Source: Zoogloea sp.
Lineage (GTDB): Bacteria > Pseudomonadota > Gammaproteobacteria > Burkholderiales > Rhodocyclaceae
Reading direction: 5' to 3'
Assembly (NCBI RefSeq): GCF_030157465.1
Contig: NZ_JAOAUU010000147.1
Coordinates: 1-64,000, forward strand
DNA length: 64,000 nucleotides
Shown: positions 32,471 through 40,536 of the stretch, piece by piece
Numbering within the stretch: position 1 is the stretch's first letter
Layout: each line of letters opens with the position of its first letter
Made by a program: the position numbers and the translations under genes
The notes under the pieces: generated by a model
Database searches by the model: none
What the model was told of the DNA's origin: nothing
What the model saw: only the letters and a program-made list of their open reading frames with translations

Positions 32471-32808
32471 GGCGGACTCCTTGGAAATAAACGCAAAAAC
32501 AGGGTGGAACACGCGTGGCCAGGTGGGCCGGATGCCTCGTCGGCGGGCCGTTGCCGGTGCGTGTTTTCGCCTGTCGATGGCGGGCGGTGTTTTCTGCCCG
32601 CCAGTGAGTGAAAGACTCCGGCGGCGCGGGTTTCGTTCCGGCGGGCCGTACTGTTGAATTCCCGACCGTTGCGCCCCGCCTTTAAGGTCCGCTTAAGTTG
32701 GTCCGACCAGAATTGTTTCGCCCGATCAATTCTGGATGGCCGGGCGGGCTTCTTCACCAAGCCCGATCCAGGCCTCCGTCCTCACCCTGTTCAACGCAAG
32801 GAATCCGC
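32471..32808. other. Gap before the heme lipoprotein gene, with an operator-like repeat
   Basis: About 338 bp without a gene. Its main feature is the inverted repeat at 32707-32735 (listed separately). The other DNA is ordinary GC-rich sequence with no terminator seen for either side. Confidence 0.5.
32707..32735. promoter_or_regulatory. Inverted repeat upstream of the lipoprotein-cytochrome gene
   Basis: CCAGAATTG (32707-32715), an 11-bp spacer, CAATTCTGG (32727-32735). Perfect 9-bp arms, total 29 bp, 73 bp upstream of the lipoprotein start. This looks like an operator for a dimeric regulator. No regulator gene is adjacent. Confidence 0.5.
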
Positions 32809-34041
32809 ATGACAACCGACAGACTTACCCGTGGTGCCGGCACGCACGGTTTATTGGCAAGCGCCCTGGCTGCCGCCTTTCTTGCTGCATGCGGCGGCGG
32901 TGGAGGCGGTGGCGGCACGACCGCTGCGCCGGCGGGCCCGGCAACGGTGCTGAACGGCGTGGCCGTGGACGGCTACCTGAAAGGCGCCACGGTGTTTCTG
33001 GATCTCAACGGCAACGGCCTGCAGGACGCTGGCGAGCCGTCAAGCATCACCAACGATACCGGGCGTTACGCGCTGAACTACAGCGGCGTTGCCGATTCGA
33101 TCGCCGGCAAGATGATCGTGGTGACGGGCGGCATTGATACCGACACCGGCTACGCCTTTGGCGGCCGGCTGACCACCCGCGCCGAACAGGCAGCGAGCGG
33201 CCAGGTGGTTTCGCCCTTCACGACCCTGGTCGATGCCCTGGTTGCCCAGGGGCTGACGATCGATGCGGCCCGCAGCCGGCTGGCCGCAGCCCTCGGCCTG
33301 AGCGTCGCGGATCTCGCCACCGACCCGCTGGCGGCGCTGGCAAACCAGCCCGCCATCTACACCCAGCAAGTGGCGTTGCAGCGCAGCATCCAGCTGCTGG
33401 CCGCGGCCAACACCCGTGAGGGCGATTCGGCGTACGCGGCCCAGCAGCGCATCGTCGACGCCCTGGCGGTGGCGATCAAATCGGGCACCGGGCAGGTCAG
33501 CGTGGGAGGCCTCGTTGCGCAGATCAATGCCACCAACACCGCTGCCGGCCGCCAGCTGGCCGATGCTCTCCACGATGCCCTGGAAGCCGCGCTGAAAACC
33601 CCGGGCGGCCATCAAAGCGCCAAGGCGGTGCTGAAGGCCATGGACCAGATGCGTACCCGCATGGAAAACACCCACGACTACAACCTCGGCACCACGGCCA
33701 GCCAGCTCGACACCGAACACGGCACGGCGGCCTTCGCCAAGCTGACCAACACCGATCACTCCGATGACGACGACGCCATCAACTCGGTGACCCGCAAGCT
33801 GGGCAGCACCACCAGCGCGATCACCCAGCCGGCCAGCACCAGCGGGCGCCTCCTGGCATCCAACTGTTTCCAGTGCCACGGCACGGGCGGCGTTGGCGGG
33901 TTTGAAAGCATTCGCGGCTCCGACGCCGGCGAGCTGAGGGAGTACCTCGGCAAACCTGCGGGCGACGACATCATGGCGGCCCACGCCCAGGGCTACACCA
34001 GCGCCCAGCTCGACGCGATCATCGCCTACCTGAAGCAGTAA
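32809..34041 (+). CDS. Lipoprotein with C-terminal cytochrome c domain (sulfide dehydrogenase-like heme subunit)
   Basis: 410 aa. Lipobox LAAC with acceptor Cys28, followed by a Gly-rich tether (eight glycines). Residues ~46-135 form a carboxypeptidase-regulatory-like beta domain with an acidic DLNGNGLQDAGE loop. A long helical middle runs from ~135-320. The C terminus is a single class I heme domain with CFQCH (353-357) and a probable axial Met389. The next gene is the flavoprotein of a flavocytochrome c sulfide dehydrogenase-like enzyme, 15 bp on, so this is its electron-accepting partner. Normal FccA/SoxE partners are 10-21 kDa; the ~330-residue lipid-anchored addition is unusual. Confidence 0.85.
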   Translation: MTTDRLTRGAGTHGLLASALAAAFLAACGGGGGGGGTTAAPAGPATVLNGVAVDGYLKGATVFLDLNGNGLQDAGEPSSITNDTGRYALNYSGVADSIAGKMIVVTGGIDTDTGYAFGGRLTTRAEQAASGQVVSPFTTLVDALVAQGLTIDAARSRLAAALGLSVADLATDPLAALANQPAIYTQQVALQRSIQLLAAANTREGDSAYAAQQRIVDALAVAIKSGTGQVSVGGLVAQINATNTAAGRQLADALHDALEAALKTPGGHQSAKAVLKAMDQMRTRMENTHDYNLGTTASQLDTEHGTAAFAKLTNTDHSDDDDAINSVTRKLGSTTSAITQPASTSGRLLASNCFQCHGTGGVGGFESIRGSDAGELREYLGKPAGDDIMAAHAQGYTSAQLDAIIAYLKQ

Positions 34042-34056
34042 GACCGGAGACCCGAC

Positions 34057-35472
34057 ATGAAATCCGACAACAACAACACCCTCAAATCCCGTCGCCGCCT
34101 CATGCTGCTCGCCACCGCTGCGCTGGGCGCCGGGCTGGTGCCGTCGCTGGGCCGCCTGGCCTTTGCCGATTCCGACGGAGACGATGACGACAACCATTAC
34201 GAAGAAAGCGCCAACACCAGCTTTACGCTGGCCAACACCGGCCTCAACGCGAAAATCGTGGTGGTCGGCGGCGGCATGGCCGGCGCCACCCTGGCCAAGT
34301 ACCTGCGCCTGTGGGGCGGCAGCGGCGTGGCGGTCACGCTGGTCGAGCCCAATGCCAGCTACACCTCGAACATCATGAGCAACCTGGTGTTAAGCGGCAG
34401 CCGGTCGCTCTCCACCCTTGGCTACAGCTATGGCAGCCTGGCCGCCAAGTTCGGGGTGACGGTGAAGCAGGCCTTTGTCACCGGTATCGACAAGACCGCC
34501 AAAGCCGTGCTGCTGTCCGATGGCACCCGTTTGGCCTACGACCGGCTGGTGCTCGCGCCGGGCGTTGAGTTCATGAACGCCTACGGCCTCACCCAAGGCG
34601 ACTACGCCGGCACCACGCCCCACGCCTGGCAGGCCGGGCCGCAAACCGCCGAGCTGGCTCGCCAGCTGGCCGGCATGAGCAACGGCACCTTCGTGATGAC
34701 GATTCCGAAGGCCCCTTACCGTTGCCCGCCCGGCCCCTACGAGCGCGCCTGTATCGTGGCCGACTATCTCAAAACCTACCGGGGCGCCGCGTCGAAGGTG
34801 ATCGTGCTTGACGAAAACGCCAGCATCCAGGCCGAAAGGGAAACCTTCACCACGGCGTTTGGCGTCACCCACGCGGGCGTCGTCCAGTACGAAGCCGGCG
34901 TCACGGGCATTGCGATCGACCCGGTGACAAAGGTCGTCAGCTACCTCGACGCCGTGGGCACGCCCCGTACGATCAACGCCCAGGTGGTCAATCCCATCCC
35001 GCCGCACCGCGCCACGGGCAGCAGCGCCGGTGGCTGGCTTGCCGGTGCAGAGCTCAACAACAGCGCCGATGGCCGCTGGTGCGTGGTTGATGTGCTGAGC
35101 TACGAATCCACCGCCGTGCCCGGCATCCACGTGATTGGCGACGCGGCCAGCTGCGGCTTGCCCAAGGCCGGCCATGTGGCCAACCAGGAGGCCAAGATCT
35201 GCGCCGACGCCATTGTTCGCCTGCTGGCCGGCCAGCAGCCCGATCCGGCACCGGTGGCCAACTCGGCCTGCTATTCGCCGATCACCGCTTCGACTGCTTC
35301 GTGGCTGACGGCGGTCTATCAGTACGACGCCGTGAACCGCAAGATGGTGGTGGCCGCCAACGGTGGCAATCCGCTGGGCGCTGTACCCACGGCATCGGCA
35401 ACGGTGAGCAACAAGAACTACAAAAACATGAGCACGTGGTTCAACACCCTGATGGGCGACAGCTTCGCCTGA
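34057..35472 (+). CDS. Flavocytochrome c sulfide dehydrogenase-like flavoprotein (FccB/SoxF type)
   Basis: 471 aa. Oxidises sulfide or a reduced sulfur/carbon compound through FAD and a redox disulfide and passes electrons to the upstream heme lipoprotein. A twin-arginine-like leader (SRRRLMLLATAALGAGLVPS) is followed by an acidic linker (DSDGDDDDNHYEE). FAD-binding VVVGGGMAGATLAKY starts at ~68. Cys223 in APYRCPPGPYERAC matches the first cysteine of the FccB redox disulfide; Cys232, or a later Cys in GDAASCGLPKAG, could be the partner. The C-terminal FCSD domain extends to the end. Substrate is inferred from family, not proven. Confidence 0.88.
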   Translation: MKSDNNNTLKSRRRLMLLATAALGAGLVPSLGRLAFADSDGDDDDNHYEESANTSFTLANTGLNAKIVVVGGGMAGATLAKYLRLWGGSGVAVTLVEPNASYTSNIMSNLVLSGSRSLSTLGYSYGSLAAKFGVTVKQAFVTGIDKTAKAVLLSDGTRLAYDRLVLAPGVEFMNAYGLTQGDYAGTTPHAWQAGPQTAELARQLAGMSNGTFVMTIPKAPYRCPPGPYERACIVADYLKTYRGAASKVIVLDENASIQAERETFTTAFGVTHAGVVQYEAGVTGIAIDPVTKVVSYLDAVGTPRTINAQVVNPIPPHRATGSSAGGWLAGAELNNSADGRWCVVDVLSYESTAVPGIHVIGDAASCGLPKAGHVANQEAKICADAIVRLLAGQQPDPAPVANSACYSPITASTASWLTAVYQYDAVNRKMVVAANGGNPLGAVPTASATVSNKNYKNMSTWFNTLMGDSFA

Positions 35473-35513: not shown

Positions 35514-35552
35514 GCGAAAAAGCCACGCCCAGATCGGGCGTGGCTTTTTCGC
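35514..35552. terminator. Intrinsic terminator after the flavocytochrome genes
   Basis: Two perfect 17-base arms (35514-35530 and 35536-35552, core AGCCACGCCC / GGGCGTGGCT) around loop AGATC. The ends are GCGAAAAA and TTTTTCGC, so a T run follows the GC stem in both directions. Confidence 0.92.
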
Positions 35553-35877: not shown

Positions 35878-37764
35878 TCAGCGGCCGATGCGCCCCTTGC
35901 CGCGGGCGAGCCGGTGCAGCACTGCGACGAGGGTGTCGACCTCTTCGCAGGTGTTGTAGAAGGCCAGCGAGGGCCGCACCGTGGCTTCCTGCCCGAAACG
36001 TCGCAGGATGGGCTGGGCGCAGTGGTGGCCGGAGCGCACCGCGATGCCTTCTTCGTTGAGCGCTTTGCCCACCTCTTCGGGCCGGTAGCCGTCGAGGACG
36101 AAGGACAGCACGCTGGCCTTGTCCCGGGCGGTGCCGATCAGCTTGAGGCCGGGCACGGTGAGGAGGCCGCGCGTGGCATACACCAGCAGGTCGTGCTCGT
36201 AGCGGGCGATGTTCTCCATGCCGATGCGCTCCACGTAGTCGAGCGCCGCGCCAAGGCCTAGCGCATCCGCGATGTTGCCGGTGCCGGCTTCAAAGCGGGT
36301 GGGCGCGCCGTGGTAAACGGTTTTCTCGAAGGTGACGTCGGCGATCATGTTGCCGCCGCCCTGCCACGGGGGCATGTCTTCGAGGATGTGCCGCTTGCCG
36401 TACACCACGCCGATACCCGTCGGGCCGAAGATCTTGTGGCCCGAGAAGACGAAGAAGTCGGCGTCGATGTCCTGCACATTCACCCGCATGTGCGATACCG
36501 ACTGGGCGCCATCCACCACCGCCACGGCGCCGGCCCGGTGGGCCAGGTCAACGATTTCCTTTACCGGCACCACGGTGCCGAGGGCATTGGAAACCTGCGT
36601 CACCGAGACGATTTTGGTGCGATCAGAGAGCAGTTTGCGGTACTCGTCGAGTCGCACCTGGCCGGTGTCGTCCACCGGGATCACCTTGAGCTTTGCGCCC
36701 TTGGCGGCGGCGAGCTGCTGCCAGGGAACGATGTTGGCGTGGTGCTCCAGGTTGGACACGATGATCTCGTCGCCTTCGCCCACGTTCTGCCAGCCCCACG
36801 TCTTGGCGATCAGGTTTATGCCTTCGGTGGTGCCGCGCACGAAGATGATCTCCTCGCTGGATGCCGCACCCAGGAAGCGGGCAACCTTGTTGCGCGCGCC
36901 CTCGTAGGCGTCCGTTGCGCGGGCGGCGAGTTCGTGGGCGGCCCGGTGGATGTTGGAGTTTTCGTGCTGGTAGAAGTAAGCCAGCCGGTCGATCACTGCC
37001 TGAGGCTTGTGGGTGGTGGCGGCGTTGTCGAACCAGATCAGCTGCCGGCCATTCACCCGCTCCTGCAGGATCGGGAAATCGCGCCGTACGGCGTGCACGT
37101 CGAAGGCCGGATGGGCTGCGCTGGGCGTGGCGGGCAGGTCTGCTTCCGGCTTCGGCACGTTGTGTGTGTCGAGGAAGTAATACGGGCTCGCTGCGCTGCT
37201 GCCGGGCACGGAGGCCGTGCGCCGCTCGCCGGCCAGTTCGGCCAGGATGCTGTGGAGTTCCGCTTCGCCGGGAAGGCCGAAGGATTGCGCGGCAGTGCGG
37301 TTCTCGGCCCGCGGTGCGGCATGTGCCGCCTGCTGCGGTGCGGACTGGAAGGCGCCGGCTTCACCCAGGAAGTAATAGGGTGTCGACGGTGCCAGCGGCG
37401 GTGGCGATACCGGCGGGCTGAAGGTGGGCAGCGCGGCTGCGTAGGCCTCGGGCACGCCGAGGGCCGGCGCACCGGGCCGGCCGGCCGCGCTGGCGTGGTC
37501 GATCGGCACGGATTCTGCCCGCACGGGCGCTACCGGCGCGGCGGCGGTCAGGGTCGGGCCGACGTTGCCGGGCGGAATGATTTCCGGCGCCGGGGCGCGC
37601 GGGGCATTCGGCAGCGACAGCGCGGATGCGCCGCCGAAGCCGGTCGGCAGCGCGGCGAAGAATTCACCCGCGAGCCGTGCCAGCGTCACCTCGTCCGGCA
37701 AGCCGGCAGGAACTGCGCCGGCCAGGCCGGCGAGCCCCTCACTTGTAGGTGTCGGGATAGTCAT
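35878..37764 (-). CDS. Cysteine desulfurase with encapsulin cargo-loading N terminus (SufS-like, family 2A CyD)
   Basis: 628 aa. Residues ~222-628 are a complete SufS/CsdA-type desulfurase: PLP-lysine Lys444 in FSGHKIFG, active-site Cys582 in RSGHHCAQP, PLP-contacting HH at 341-342. It releases sulfur from cysteine. Residues 1-220 are low-complexity, Ala/Pro-rich and disordered, with conserved islands: LARLAGEFF (28-36) and two YYFL motifs (130-133 and 195-198). This is the hallmark of desulfurases packed inside family 2A encapsulin shells. The shell gene lies directly upstream and overlaps by 26 bp. The pair should form a cysteine-derived sulfur store or reactor. Start ATG at 37764. Confidence 0.95.
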   Translation of the reverse strand: MTIPTPTSEGLAGLAGAVPAGLPDEVTLARLAGEFFAALPTGFGGASALSLPNAPRAPAPEIIPPGNVGPTLTAAAPVAPVRAESVPIDHASAAGRPGAPALGVPEAYAAALPTFSPPVSPPPLAPSTPYYFLGEAGAFQSAPQQAAHAAPRAENRTAAQSFGLPGEAELHSILAELAGERRTASVPGSSAASPYYFLDTHNVPKPEADLPATPSAAHPAFDVHAVRRDFPILQERVNGRQLIWFDNAATTHKPQAVIDRLAYFYQHENSNIHRAAHELAARATDAYEGARNKVARFLGAASSEEIIFVRGTTEGINLIAKTWGWQNVGEGDEIIVSNLEHHANIVPWQQLAAAKGAKLKVIPVDDTGQVRLDEYRKLLSDRTKIVSVTQVSNALGTVVPVKEIVDLAHRAGAVAVVDGAQSVSHMRVNVQDIDADFFVFSGHKIFGPTGIGVVYGKRHILEDMPPWQGGGNMIADVTFEKTVYHGAPTRFEAGTGNIADALGLGAALDYVERIGMENIARYEHDLLVYATRGLLTVPGLKLIGTARDKASVLSFVLDGYRPEEVGKALNEEGIAVRSGHHCAQPILRRFGQEATVRPSLAFYNTCEEVDTLVAVLHRLARGKGRIGR

Positions 37765-38668
37765 GGTACTTGCCGATCTCCACATCATCGAGGACAGCCA
37801 GTGCATCGTCGGTCAGCACGGCCAGCGAGCAATACAGGGAAATCAGGTAGGACGAGATGGCGTTGCGGTTGATGCCCATGAAACGCACGGACAGGCCCGG
37901 GGTCTGCTCGCCGGCAAGGCCCGGCTGGAACAGGCCGACCACGCCCTGACGCTTTTCGCCGGTGCGCAGCAGGATGATCTTGGTTTTGCCGTCTTCAACC
38001 GGAACCTTGTCCGACGGGATCAGCGGGATGCCGCGCCAGGTGAGGAACTGGGCGCCGAACAGGCTGACGGTGGGGGGCGGCACGCCGCGGCGGGTGCATT
38101 CACGGCCAAAGGCGGCGATGGCCAGCGGGTGGGTCAGGAAGAAGCCGGGTTCCTTCCAGACCTTGGTGATCAGGTCGTCGAGGTCGTCCGGGGTCGGGGC
38201 GCCGGTCAGGGTGGAAATGCGCTGCTCATCGGTGACATTGGCCAGAAGGCCGTAGTCGGGGTTGTTGATGAGTTCGGATTCCTGGCGTTCCTTGATCGTC
38301 TCGACGGTGAGGCGCAGTTGCTCCTTGATCTGGTCGTGGGGGCTGCTGTACAGATCGGAGACGCGGGTGTGCACGTCGAGGATGGTGGTGACGGCGTTGA
38401 GGAAGTACTCGCGGGGGGCTTCGTCGTAGTCGACGAAGGTTTGCGGCAGTTCGGACTCGTCGCGCTGGGAGCAGGCAACACGCACATCGCGGGGGTTCTT
38501 GACCTTGTTGAGGCGGTAGATACCGGCTTCGACCGGCAACCATTGCAGCAGGTGCACCAGCCAGCGCGGCGAGATGGTGGACAGCTGGGGAACGGTTTTG
38601 GTGGCATTGGCCAGTTGCCGCGCGGCGTTATCGCCAAGGGCTGTGGGGACGTCGTGGTGATCGGACAT
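37739..38668 (-). CDS. Family 2A encapsulin shell protein (SrpI-like)
   Basis: 309-aa HK97-fold protein that self-assembles into a closed nanocompartment. I recognise it as the sulfur-starvation SrpI/family 2A type by its length and signature segments (PRWLVHLLQWLPVEAGIYRL, FVDYDEAPREYFLNAVTTIL, LFGAQFLTWRGIPLIPSDKV, GLSVRFMGINRNAISSYLIS), and by the downstream desulfurase with matching cargo domain. The 96-bp upstream gap is AT-rich and has AAGGAG before the ATG and probably its own promoter, because the XRE gene stop lies at the other end of it. No cyclic-nucleotide-binding domain is seen, so it is family 2A, not 2B. Confidence 0.95.
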   Translation of the reverse strand: MSDHHDVPTALGDNAARQLANATKTVPQLSTISPRWLVHLLQWLPVEAGIYRLNKVKNPRDVRVACSQRDESELPQTFVDYDEAPREYFLNAVTTILDVHTRVSDLYSSPHDQIKEQLRLTVETIKERQESELINNPDYGLLANVTDEQRISTLTGAPTPDDLDDLITKVWKEPGFFLTHPLAIAAFGRECTRRGVPPPTVSLFGAQFLTWRGIPLIPSDKVPVEDGKTKIILLRTGEKRQGVVGLFQPGLAGEQTPGLSVRFMGINRNAISSYLISLYCSLAVLTDDALAVLDDVEIGKYHDYPDTYK

Positions 38669-38764
38669 GGATGGGCTCCTTATTCCTGCAGGTGGAAAGC
38701 TTATGAAAAAATCAGATAAAGAATTCTGGTTGTGCGGTGCATCAACTTCAACCGGCTATAGCCG
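38669..38764 (-). promoter_or_regulatory. Probable encapsulin promoter region
   Basis: 96 bp between the XRE gene and the encapsulin start, with an AT-rich centre (GATAAAGAATTC, TTTTTTCATAAGC on the minus strand) and ribosome-binding AAGGAG. A perfect palindrome CGGCTATAGCCG lies at 38753-38764. AGCTTATGAA (38698-38707) repeats exactly the arm of a palindrome upstream of the operon's first gene (40662-40685), suggesting a shared regulator. Promoter position not determined. Confidence 0.55.
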
Positions 38765-39007
38765 TCAACTGCGTGCCTGGCCGGTGCTGGCGGATTCAAA
38801 ACGGGCGACCAGCGCCGAGGGTTGCAGGCCGAGGGCCGCGGCGAGCTTGGTCAGCGTGGCCAGCGAGGGCATGGCCCGGCCGCGCTCGAGATCGCCGATA
38901 TAGCTGCGGTTGAGATCGGCGTGCTCGGCGAGGCGCTCCTGCGACCAGCCCCGTTCTTCGCGAACCTGGCGTACGGCGTTGCCGAAGCTGCGCGAAAGCT
39001 CAGTCAT
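38765..39007 (-). CDS. XRE-family transcriptional regulator
   Basis: 80 aa, a single helix-turn-helix domain (QVREERGWSQERLAEHADLN, then RSYIGDLERGRAMPSLATLT). Start ATG overlaps the serine acetyltransferase gene by 8 bp. It sits inside the encapsulin operon, between the acetyltransferase and shell genes, so it probably regulates the locus, perhaps through the inverted repeats found upstream of the rhodanese gene and upstream of the shell gene. No ligand domain is visible. Confidence 0.88.
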   Translation of the reverse strand: MTELSRSFGNAVRQVREERGWSQERLAEHADLNRSYIGDLERGRAMPSLATLTKLAAALGLQPSALVARFESASTGQARS

Positions 39008-40013
39008 CGATAGGCTCTCCGCTGGCGGGTGCCTGCTGCCGGGTGGTGGCCTGGGTAACCTGGCTGCCGGGCGGGACGCTGTGGGTGAGCCACACGTTGC
39101 CGCCGATGCTGGAGCCGCGGCCGATGGTGATGCGGCCGAGAATGGTGGCGCCGGCATAGACCACCACGTCGTCCTCGACAATGGGGTGGCGGGCGAGGCC
39201 TTTTTCGAGGCTGCCGTCGGCACCCACCGGAAAGCGTTTGGCGCCGAGGGTGACGGCCTGGTAGAGGCGCACGCGGCGCCCGATCACCGCGGTTTCGCCA
39301 ATCACGACGCCGGTGCCGTGGTCGATGAAGAAGCTCTCGCCGATGTCGGCGCCCGGATGGATGTCGATGCCGGTGGCCGAATGGGCCAGCTCCGAAACGA
39401 TGCGGGCGATGAGCGGCACGCCGAGGCGATACAGCTGGTGGGCCAGGCGGTGATGGATGACGGCCAGGATGCCGGGGTAGCACAGCACCACTTCGTCCAC
39501 GCTGCCGGCGGCCGGGTCGCCGTGGTAGGCGGCTTCGACATCGCTGTCGAGCAGCTCGCGGATGCGCGGCAGGGCGGCGGCAAAATCACGCACGATGCGC
39601 TCGGAGGCCACGTGGCTGGCATCGATGTCGGGGTGACCGTGGCGCAGCTGGTAGTCGAGCTCCAGCGCCACCTGCTCACGCAGGCCGTTGAGGGCGGCGT
39701 CGAGGGTGTGGCCGACGTAGAAATCCTCGTTTTCCTGGCGCAGGTCGGCCGGGCCGAGGCGCATCGGAAAGAGCGCGCCGCGCAGGCCGTCGACGACGAC
39801 GCGCAGGGCTTCGCGGGAGGGCAGCTCGCGGCCGCCGTATTCGCGCTGGCGCTGCTGGGCGTGGCGCCAGCGTTCGCGCACGGCGCGCAGCCCGGTGACG
39901 ACGCTGTCCAGATCCCACGAGTTGCGCGCGGGCGCTTGCGAGTGCAGCGGGGCGACCTTGGCCGGGCGGGTGCCGGTGGTGGCGTCGGAGTGGTTTCGGC
40001 TGGCCTGGAGCAT
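39000..40013 (-). CDS. Serine O-acetyltransferase (EpsC/CysE type)
   Basis: 337 aa. Makes O-acetylserine, the carbon precursor to which sulfide is added to give cysteine. The N-terminal helical domain (~30-200) is followed by left-handed beta-helix hexapeptide repeats (HPGADIGESFFIDHGTGVVI, then IGRRVRLYQAVTLGAKRF and later LGRITIGRGSSIGGNVWL), with the catalytic His in DHGTG. It lies in the operon that also encodes the desulfurase and shell. This enzyme is a regular neighbour of family 2A encapsulins. Start ATG 40013 is 4 bp from the rhodanese stop. Confidence 0.93.
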   Translation of the reverse strand: MLQASRNHSDATTGTRPAKVAPLHSQAPARNSWDLDSVVTGLRAVRERWRHAQQRQREYGGRELPSREALRVVVDGLRGALFPMRLGPADLRQENEDFYVGHTLDAALNGLREQVALELDYQLRHGHPDIDASHVASERIVRDFAAALPRIRELLDSDVEAAYHGDPAAGSVDEVVLCYPGILAVIHHRLAHQLYRLGVPLIARIVSELAHSATGIDIHPGADIGESFFIDHGTGVVIGETAVIGRRVRLYQAVTLGAKRFPVGADGSLEKGLARHPIVEDDVVVYAGATILGRITIGRGSSIGGNVWLTHSVPPGSQVTQATTRQQAPASGEPIDD

Positions 40014-40017
40014 GGTT

Positions 40018-40536
40018 TCAGTCCTGGATCCAGGGCAGGGCGTGGTAGCGCCAGCCGCCCAGGCTGCCCCGCCGGGTGTCGGCATCCAGATCGCCCTCGA
40101 AGCCTTCGAGAATGTTGAAGGCGTTGGCGAAGCCGGCCTTGCTTGCGGCTTCTGCGGCGGCCGCCGAGCGCTTGCCGCTGCGGCACAGGAAGAGCACCAC
40201 GGCGTCTTTCCTGACCTTGGCTTCGAGTTCCTTCACGAAGCGCGGGTTGCGCGTCATGGCGGTGCCGGTCATCCAGGCCACGTGCAGGGTGTCGGGCACG
40301 TGGCCGACAAACTTGCGCTCTTCGTTGGTGCGTACGTCGACCAGCACGGCATAGCCGGCACTGGCCAGCTCCCAGGCTTCGGTCGGGCTTACGCCACCGG
40401 CGAAGGGAAGGCCTTCGGCGCGGGCGCGTTCGCGGGCTGTTGCAAGCAGGGTGTCCAGCTCATCGGGCTGGCTGGTGGCGTTCTGGGCACTCAGGTGCTG
40501 GTTCGAGGCGAGGTCGCTGTGCTGGGTGTCGAGCAT
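40018..40536 (-). CDS. Rhodanese-like sulfurtransferase (encapsulin operon)
   Basis: 172 aa. The single rhodanese domain is in the C-terminal two thirds, with active-site loop CRSGKRSAAA (Cys~118). It can carry a persulfide sulfur from the desulfurase to thiophilic acceptors, matching the family 2A encapsulin gene set. First gene of the operon. The upstream region carries two likely control motifs (listed separately). Confidence 0.92.
   Translation of the reverse strand: MLDTQHSDLASNQHLSAQNATSQPDELDTLLATARERARAEGLPFAGGVSPTEAWELASAGYAVLVDVRTNEERKFVGHVPDTLHVAWMTGTAMTRNPRFVKELEAKVRKDAVVLFLCRSGKRSAAAAEAASKAGFANAFNILEGFEGDLDADTRRGSLGGWRYHALPWIQD

Follow-up and report, generated by a model that had tools for sequence, protein, structure and literature searches.

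A Predicted Lipid-Anchored Heme Partner in an FCSD-Like Gene Pair of Zoogloea and in a Clade of Related Loci

Introduction

The described systems closest to the gene pair considered here are FccAB, represented by the proteins of Allochromatium (1fcd), Thermochromatium (3vrd), and Thioalkalivibrio (5n1t), and SoxEF, a combination of an FccB-like flavoprotein with a monoheme cytochrome. One report on FCSD describes a thioether that joins FAD covalently to a conserved cysteine, as well as a cysteine pair, and has the known enzymes purified from the periplasm (PMC12010331). Another relevant system is PgcA of Geobacter sulfurreducens, which is presented as a lipid-anchored protein whose first domain, lacking a predicted cofactor, is followed by three monoheme domains (PMC11520253; PMC5732950); its Geobacter homologs vary from one to six hemes (PMC5732950), so that heme number alone is a soft criterion of relationship. 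For Rhodoferax sediminis, an FSD gene and soxF have been reported, with no such architectural detail (PMC7074706). In titles and abstract openings of the openly licensed literature we found no account of a lipoprotein or membrane-anchored flavocytochrome c partner of the layout presented below, nor was this architecture described in those on non-covalent FCSD, DUF5666, or DUF6502.

The Zoogloea pair shares with FccAB the flavoprotein domains, the redox cysteine pair, the CPPGPYER motif, and a neighboring c-type heme protein whose domain has the form CxxCH...IM. It differs from FccAB in having Asn in place of the covalent-FAD cysteine and in its heme partner, which is small and soluble in FccAB but here is a predicted lipoprotein of 410 residues carrying a single heme on a putative stalk. 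An FccB-like flavoprotein with a monoheme cytochrome is equally found in SoxEF; however, the genome under study has no SoxB over cut-off (a sox cluster being judged by SoxB alone), and in four other Zoogloea draft genomes the corresponding pair lies on a different contig from SoxB. With PgcA the heme partner has in common a lipid anchor (here a predicted lipobox) and a monoheme c-type domain; its N-terminal non-heme domain resembles that of PgcA in predicted fold, without sequence match. In contrast to PgcA, it has a single CxxCH instead of three heme domains, lacks (PT)x linkers and the mineral-binding bis-His domain, and is paired with a flavoprotein.

Organization of the Locus

The window, that is, the whole stretch of 64,000 nucleotides analyzed, belongs to a 4.7-Mb draft genome, and the nearest named relatives of the 410-residue protein are from Zoogloea. 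The two reading frames of interest lie on the same strand with a gap of 15 bases (table 1). A first-pass annotation of the sequence had read the upstream frame as a large lipoprotein-cytochrome and the downstream one as its FCSD-like flavoprotein partner. Both readings hold: the LAAC lipobox with Cys28, the eight glycines, the DLNGNGLQDAGE loop, the helical middle, and the one CFQCH motif are all in place, and the second frame is FccB-like with strong matches to FCSD structures. The same annotation regarded this layout as unlike that of characterized FCSD partners, and indeed none with such a layout emerged from PDB sequence searches or from the titles and abstract openings of the literature listings. 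Since orthologs keep the same architecture, the joining of a long spacer to the heme domain (the fusion, hereafter) is not a product of frameshift or misassembly. The strong hairpin that follows the pair was missed by the terminator scan, probably because its T run sits within the stem.

Table 1. Features of the gene pair, in window coordinates
Feature	Coordinates	Strand	Basis or remarks
Perfect inverted repeat CCAGAATTG-N11-CAATTCTGG (9+11+9), possible operator	32707..32735		Upstream of the gene pair
AAGGAA just 5' of the ATG of the 410-aa frame	32798-32803		Read from sequence
Lipoprotein-cytochrome c, heme partner, 410 aa	32809..34041	+	Open reading frame; layout kept in orthologs
Predicted signal peptide, lipobox LAAC, lipid-acceptor Cys28, Gly29-36 tether	32809..32916	+	Sequence; lipobox of relatives
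Beta domain, residues 46-135, transthyretin/SdrD_B-like	32944..33213	+	Pfam matches below cut-off; predicted model
Acidic loop DLNGNGLQDAGE, residues 65-76			Within beta domain
DTDTG, residues 110-114, with the acidic loop a possible Ca2+ site			Within beta domain
Helical middle, residues 136-316	33214..33756	+	With the beta domain, aligns to PgcA non-heme domain 9i0d
Class I cytochrome c domain, residues 344-410	33838..34038	+	C353-x-x-C356-H357; Met389 likely second ligand
FccB-like flavoprotein, 471 aa	34057..35472	+	Twin-arginine (Tat) signal SRRRLMLLA; acidic stretch at the N terminus
Bidirectional terminator-like hairpin, 14-bp arms AAAAAGCCACGCCC / GGGCGTGGCTTTTT	35517..35549	+	After the two-gene unit; read directly from sequence

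The Flavoprotein and Its FAD Site

The flavoprotein matches the Pfam families FCSD_central (89.3 bits) and FCSD-flav_bind (28 bits) above their cut-offs, and its structural matches are 3vrd_B (E 8.3e-71), 5n1t_A, and 1fcd_A, all at E 2.2e-66 or better. The redox cysteine pair is kept in all 89 rows of our FccB alignment, including the 32 rows of the clade that contains the window, and the CPPGPYER motif is retained in the flavoproteins of this clade. The position of the covalent-FAD cysteine is less constant. It is Asn in the window protein and N, S, or H (25, 5, and 2 of 32 rows) across the clade; in the sister group it is N in 12 of 12 rows. Cysteine, as in 3vrd_B and 5n1t_A, occupies it in six of 32 other rows, in all four rows of the group L103-L106, and in each of the nine outer or known rows. 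Measured against the published description (PMC12010331), the flavoprotein is homologous to FCSD but lacks one of its defining features, and because this cysteine is missing we do not class the pair as canonical FCSD. The pair would probably work like the canonical enzyme, with a redox potential, or even a substrate, that may differ from those of known FCSD given the loss of this cysteine.

The Heme Domain

The monoheme partner adjoins the FccB-like gene and resembles the heme subunits of FCSD in sequence and fold. Its heme domain scores 26.2 bits against the Pfam family Cytochrome_CBB3, just below the cut-off of 27 bits (E 9.8e-6), and its best PDB sequence match is 5n1t_B, the heme subunit of Thioalkalivibrio flavocytochrome c (E 2e-4 as a single sequence, 5.8e-7 as a profile); 3vrd_A and 1fcd_C are matched too. 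Fold comparison, based upon a low-confidence model (pLDDT 37-59), gives Z 6.3 with 5n1t_B and 5.6 with 1fcd_C, behind 4o1w and 2zzs (Z 6.8), and in profile scores the cbb3 subunit 8smr_G and the cytochrome 8yts_A rank among the FCSD subunits: non-FCSD class I cytochromes match nearly as well. Heme domain I of PgcA (8qj6) has 31% identity and Z 4.7 in the fold alignment. In 90 of the 91 cytochromes examined, the heme motif is followed by an [IVL]M pair, whose Met is the likely ligand; L046, the exception, has MM. The genome encodes CcmE, consistent with cytochrome c maturation by System I, and a search for ResB of System II did not find it.

In the clade loci examined a cytochrome frame stands directly upstream of FccB. 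A variation on this arrangement is seen in L025 (5980-8644), where two cytochrome frames precede one FccB, the first with lipobox and spacer module and the second, in between, of 135 aa.

The Spacer Module

The first-pass annotation had left the region between tether and heme domain as an unknown adhesive or scaffolding domain and had proposed a family search for it. This search, conducted with Pfam, yielded no match above cut-off, the weak ones below it being SdrD_B-like and CarboxypepD_reg-like. An AlphaFold2 model built from an alignment of 11 sequences (mean pLDDT 78.5) shows seven strands followed by eleven helices, with the heme domain poorly modeled. Foldseek gave no match for this model at E <=0.001. 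The top match in VIA-align was 9i0d, the non-heme domain of PgcA, at Z 10.3 (common helical arrangements can reach Z of about 10) and rmsd 4.2 over 159 of 201 residues, the alignment spanning model residues 2-272, or 46-316 of the protein; the next non-heme row had Z 5.6. PDB sequence searches with a profile of the full protein, with the window spacer, and with a 30-member alignment of its N-module reached neither 9i0d nor any other plausible relative of the spacer. Given this lack of a sequence-profile link to PgcA and the caveat on helical scores, the likeness to 9i0d is a lead, not proof, and one of fold only. The spacer may thus tie a widespread, unnamed lipoprotein module to the non-heme domain of PgcA.

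That the module is widespread follows from the 69 distinct sequences found among the loci examined, eleven of which are fused to heme domains. In the available part of the other 58 proteins, 30 of which have frames cut by the locus edge, no CxxCH was found, and in 37 of the 58 the module is preceded, within 60 residues, by a lipobox. Eight of these non-heme proteins were scanned: two carry MbnP, one PKD, and one RTX repeats. One of the two with MbnP is encoded on contig C44 of the same genome (L119:3754-5562, minus strand); it resembles the heme partner in lipobox, glycine stretch, and N-module, with 44% identity over residues 18-176, and differs in having MbnP (108 bits) in place of the heme domain. 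The other is the equivalent protein of another Zoogloea (L090).

Invariant or nearly invariant positions of the module comprise a DGY turn, a DxNxN...EP loop, DxD, and the P..T of SPLTT, a pattern that suggests a metal-stabilized module, perhaps with bound Ca2+. Conservation in nine full-length relatives decreases from the heme domain (70-82%) to the beta part (58-68%) and the helical part (42-55%). This weaker conservation of the spacer, along with the presence of the module on many other proteins, favors a function as stalk.

Distribution and Phylogeny

Our search of the genome collection confirmed 169 relatives, the best 80 of which, ranked by similarity to the window protein, were analyzed; given this ranking, the clade sizes reported below hold for this sample only. 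The check for similar fusions in other genomes that the first-pass annotation had recommended was fruitful. Among these 80, the full architecture occurs at nine loci (L005-L013), five from Zoogloea (two of them from one MAG) and one each from Comamonadaceae, Burkholderiaceae, Burkholderiales, and Limnohabitans, and a Thiotrichales MAG (L025) has a shorter version of the fused protein. Within the genus, five of 23 Zoogloea genomes, several of which are incomplete, carry the fusion, the window genome included and one having it twice. Wider searches, with scoring limited to five candidates per genome, covered the order (399 genomes) and the phylum (398), where the full-length protein was seen, among the matches listed, only in the window's own genome, and the class (274 genomes, E 1e-100), where only more distant flavoprotein copies of 50-53% identity appeared. 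All 121 plasmid records with a match are below 60% identity.

The FccB tree has 89 rows and derives from a short search with SH-aLRT support only; cut or short matches (L004, L036, L044, L068, L076, L081, L107) and duplicates (L003, L085-L089) were left out. The window falls in a group of 32 rows with support of 99. Eleven of its heme partners have the module of the window (the window itself, L005-L013, and L025), six have a different one that we call the VATFID module, fourteen have a short linker, with 37-81 residues separating the lipid Cys from that of the heme motif, and one has no recognizable lipobox. A lipobox, on which the predicted membrane anchor of the window protein is based, is likewise present in 30 of the 31 relatives. 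Partner classes, which were assigned by motif and by eye, require 13 changes on the whole tree versus 42.7 when labels are shuffled, indicating that partner type is clustered, and the window module alone needs at least two changes. In the sister group of 12 rows, eight heme partners were labeled by eye as containing Ig-like repeats; the L040 protein, the single one put to a test, has a match to Pfam PF13629. Among partners farther away in the tree, many are simple cytochromes about 100 aa long.

The VATFID module was considered as a relative of the window module and set aside: there is no detectable sequence relation, the full proteins align only over the heme domain, and with the VATFID model Foldseek found nothing at E 0.001, while VIA-align scores did not exceed Z 4.3.

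The architecture seen in the window recurs in a clade of FCSD-like pairs, none of them characterized, whose heme partners almost all carry a lipobox while their spacers vary. The observation is more than a curiosity: the pair belongs to a group that also has in common the lack of an FAD-linking cysteine. The clade is supported, and its sample comes largely from Burkholderiales and Zoogloea. It opens two questions to experiment in strains that can be cultured, Zoogloea ramigera among them: Why would a sulfide-type oxidase be tethered, and what does covalent FAD do in FCSD?

Functional Interpretation

The interpretation that we favor, and hold to be rather likely, is that of an FCSD-like flavocytochrome c tethered to the membrane and encoded by the two genes: an oxidase of sulfide, a sulfane, or a thiol, whose FAD is bound non-covalently and whose heme subunit stands on a stalk. 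The flavoprotein would fold with its FAD, non-covalently bound as presumably throughout the clade, before export by the Tat system. The heme partner would be exported by Sec, be lipidated at Cys28, and reach the outer membrane, in all likelihood on its periplasmic side; the '+2' rule, as we take it to apply here, should sort this lipoprotein to that membrane. Its beta domain, perhaps stabilized by Ca2+, and its helical middle would form the stalk that holds the heme domain, and hence the enzyme complex, off the membrane. Sulfide, or a related sulfane or thiol, would be oxidized at the conserved cysteine pair beside FAD, and electrons would pass singly from the flavoprotein to the heme domain, which could hand them to soluble periplasmic c-type cytochromes.

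Against this interpretation, the genes adjoining the relatives do not point specifically to sulfide. A DUF6502 gene lies upstream in six of 31 clade loci (L005, L008, L010, L013, L016, L022; 23 of the 31 have at least 3.5 kb of upstream sequence) and is followed in five of the six by a gene for a DUF5666 lipoprotein, none being detected in L008. DUF1924, the diheme cytochrome DHC, cytochrome b561, and a two-component pair, labels that derive in part from Pfam for L013 and L040 and otherwise from BLAST, occur together near L013, within the clade, and near L040, L082, and L083, outside it, the four belonging to different lineages. Such neighbors, taken with the absence of the covalent-FAD cysteine from all 32 rows of the clade and the lack of SoxB over cut-off in the window genome, could mean that the tethered architecture serves another thiol or sulfane instead of sulfide, or redox sensing or the control of envelope stress in concert with DUF5666, DUF6502, and two-component proteins. 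We consider this possible though somewhat unlikely, since the catalytic cysteines and CPPGPYER are conserved in the clade and none of the neighbors just mentioned is found at the window locus at E 1e-8. Moreover, SoxB (TIGR04486), over cut-off in 10 of the 23 genus genomes, occurs in all fusion-bearing Zoogloea genomes but that of the window, four of five, indicating that sulfur oxidation is common in these hosts. A point against the favored interpretation is that in these four draft genomes the FCSD copy within about 8 kb of SoxB lies on a contig other than that of the fused pair.

Other alternatives concern the location of the enzyme and the role of its spacer. PgcA is described as lipid-anchored and moved through the outer membrane (PMC11520253), and the VIA-align score of its non-heme domain, far above the next non-heme row, together with that of its heme domain 8qj6, raises the prospect that the lipoprotein crosses the outer membrane too and shows its heme, perhaps also the flavoprotein, on the surface for PgcA-like exchange with extracellular sulfur, minerals, or biofilm matrix. 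This appears quite improbable, as a Z of 10 is within reach of common helical arrangements, sequence profiles reach no PgcA entry, and the protein has a single heme with neither (PT)x linker nor bis-His mineral-binding domain; the Tat signal of the partner places the flavoprotein in the periplasm at some stage, and the module is also found on many unrelated proteins without heme motif. Extended to the whole clade, surface display would define a previously unrecognized class of FCSD-like flavocytochromes with non-covalent FAD, held outside the outer membrane by PgcA-style lipid-anchored stalks that lineages swap to suit their envelope; its members would either oxidize sulfide or sulfane sulfur outside the cell or connect the cell electrically with external partners, a speculation to which we accord little chance. 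As for the spacer, the weak SdrD_B- and CarboxypepD_reg-like matches and the occurrence of the module in very long proteins, with open frames of up to 9909 aa, would suit an adhesin or a module for protein binding, through which the enzyme would dock to one particular surface partner. We regard this as very unlikely: clade relatives have an unrelated module or the short linker instead, and a spacer that can be so replaced is more in keeping with a stalk than with an indispensable binding site. The adhesive or scaffolding domain first proposed has turned out to be a common lipoprotein module with a predicted fold like that of the PgcA non-heme domain, for which a stalk seems likelier than an adhesin.

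Surroundings of the Gene Pair

The inverted repeat upstream of the pair, initially noted as operator-like, is present, and its arms have no second occurrence in the genome with spacers of 8-14. The expectation of a conserved operator found no support, the repeat not being found in the ten fused relatives examined: upstream of nine there is no perfect inverted repeat of 8 bases, and the one in L005 is different. Furthermore, when the 296-base upstream region was shuffled by mononucleotides 2000 times, 35 of the shuffled sequences contained a perfect repeat of at least 9 bases (spacer 3-16).

Directly downstream of the pair, on the minus strand (35878-40085), lie genes for a type 2A encapsulin shell (SrpI-like, 353 bits), a cysteine desulfurase-like protein with a long N-terminal extension (Pfam Aminotran_5), and a hexapeptide transferase, presumably a serine acetyltransferase. 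Encapsulin shells of this kind store sulfur, and a functional link with the oxidase was considered. Among the loci compared, with flanks of up to about 6 kb, encapsulin and desulfurase matches are confined to the window, and the adjacency is therefore probably coincidental. Family 2A desulfurase operons are described in an earlier study (PMC8346489).

Finally, the order DUF6502, DUF5666 lipoprotein, heme partner, and FccB recurs among loci including L116. The window genome itself has five FCSD_central matches. The FCSD copy on contig C135 is likewise adjoined by DUF6502 and DUF5666, and two of the matches lie about 2.4 kb apart on contig C167 (L118), with a protein between them that we take to resemble YeeE/YedE sulfur transporters.
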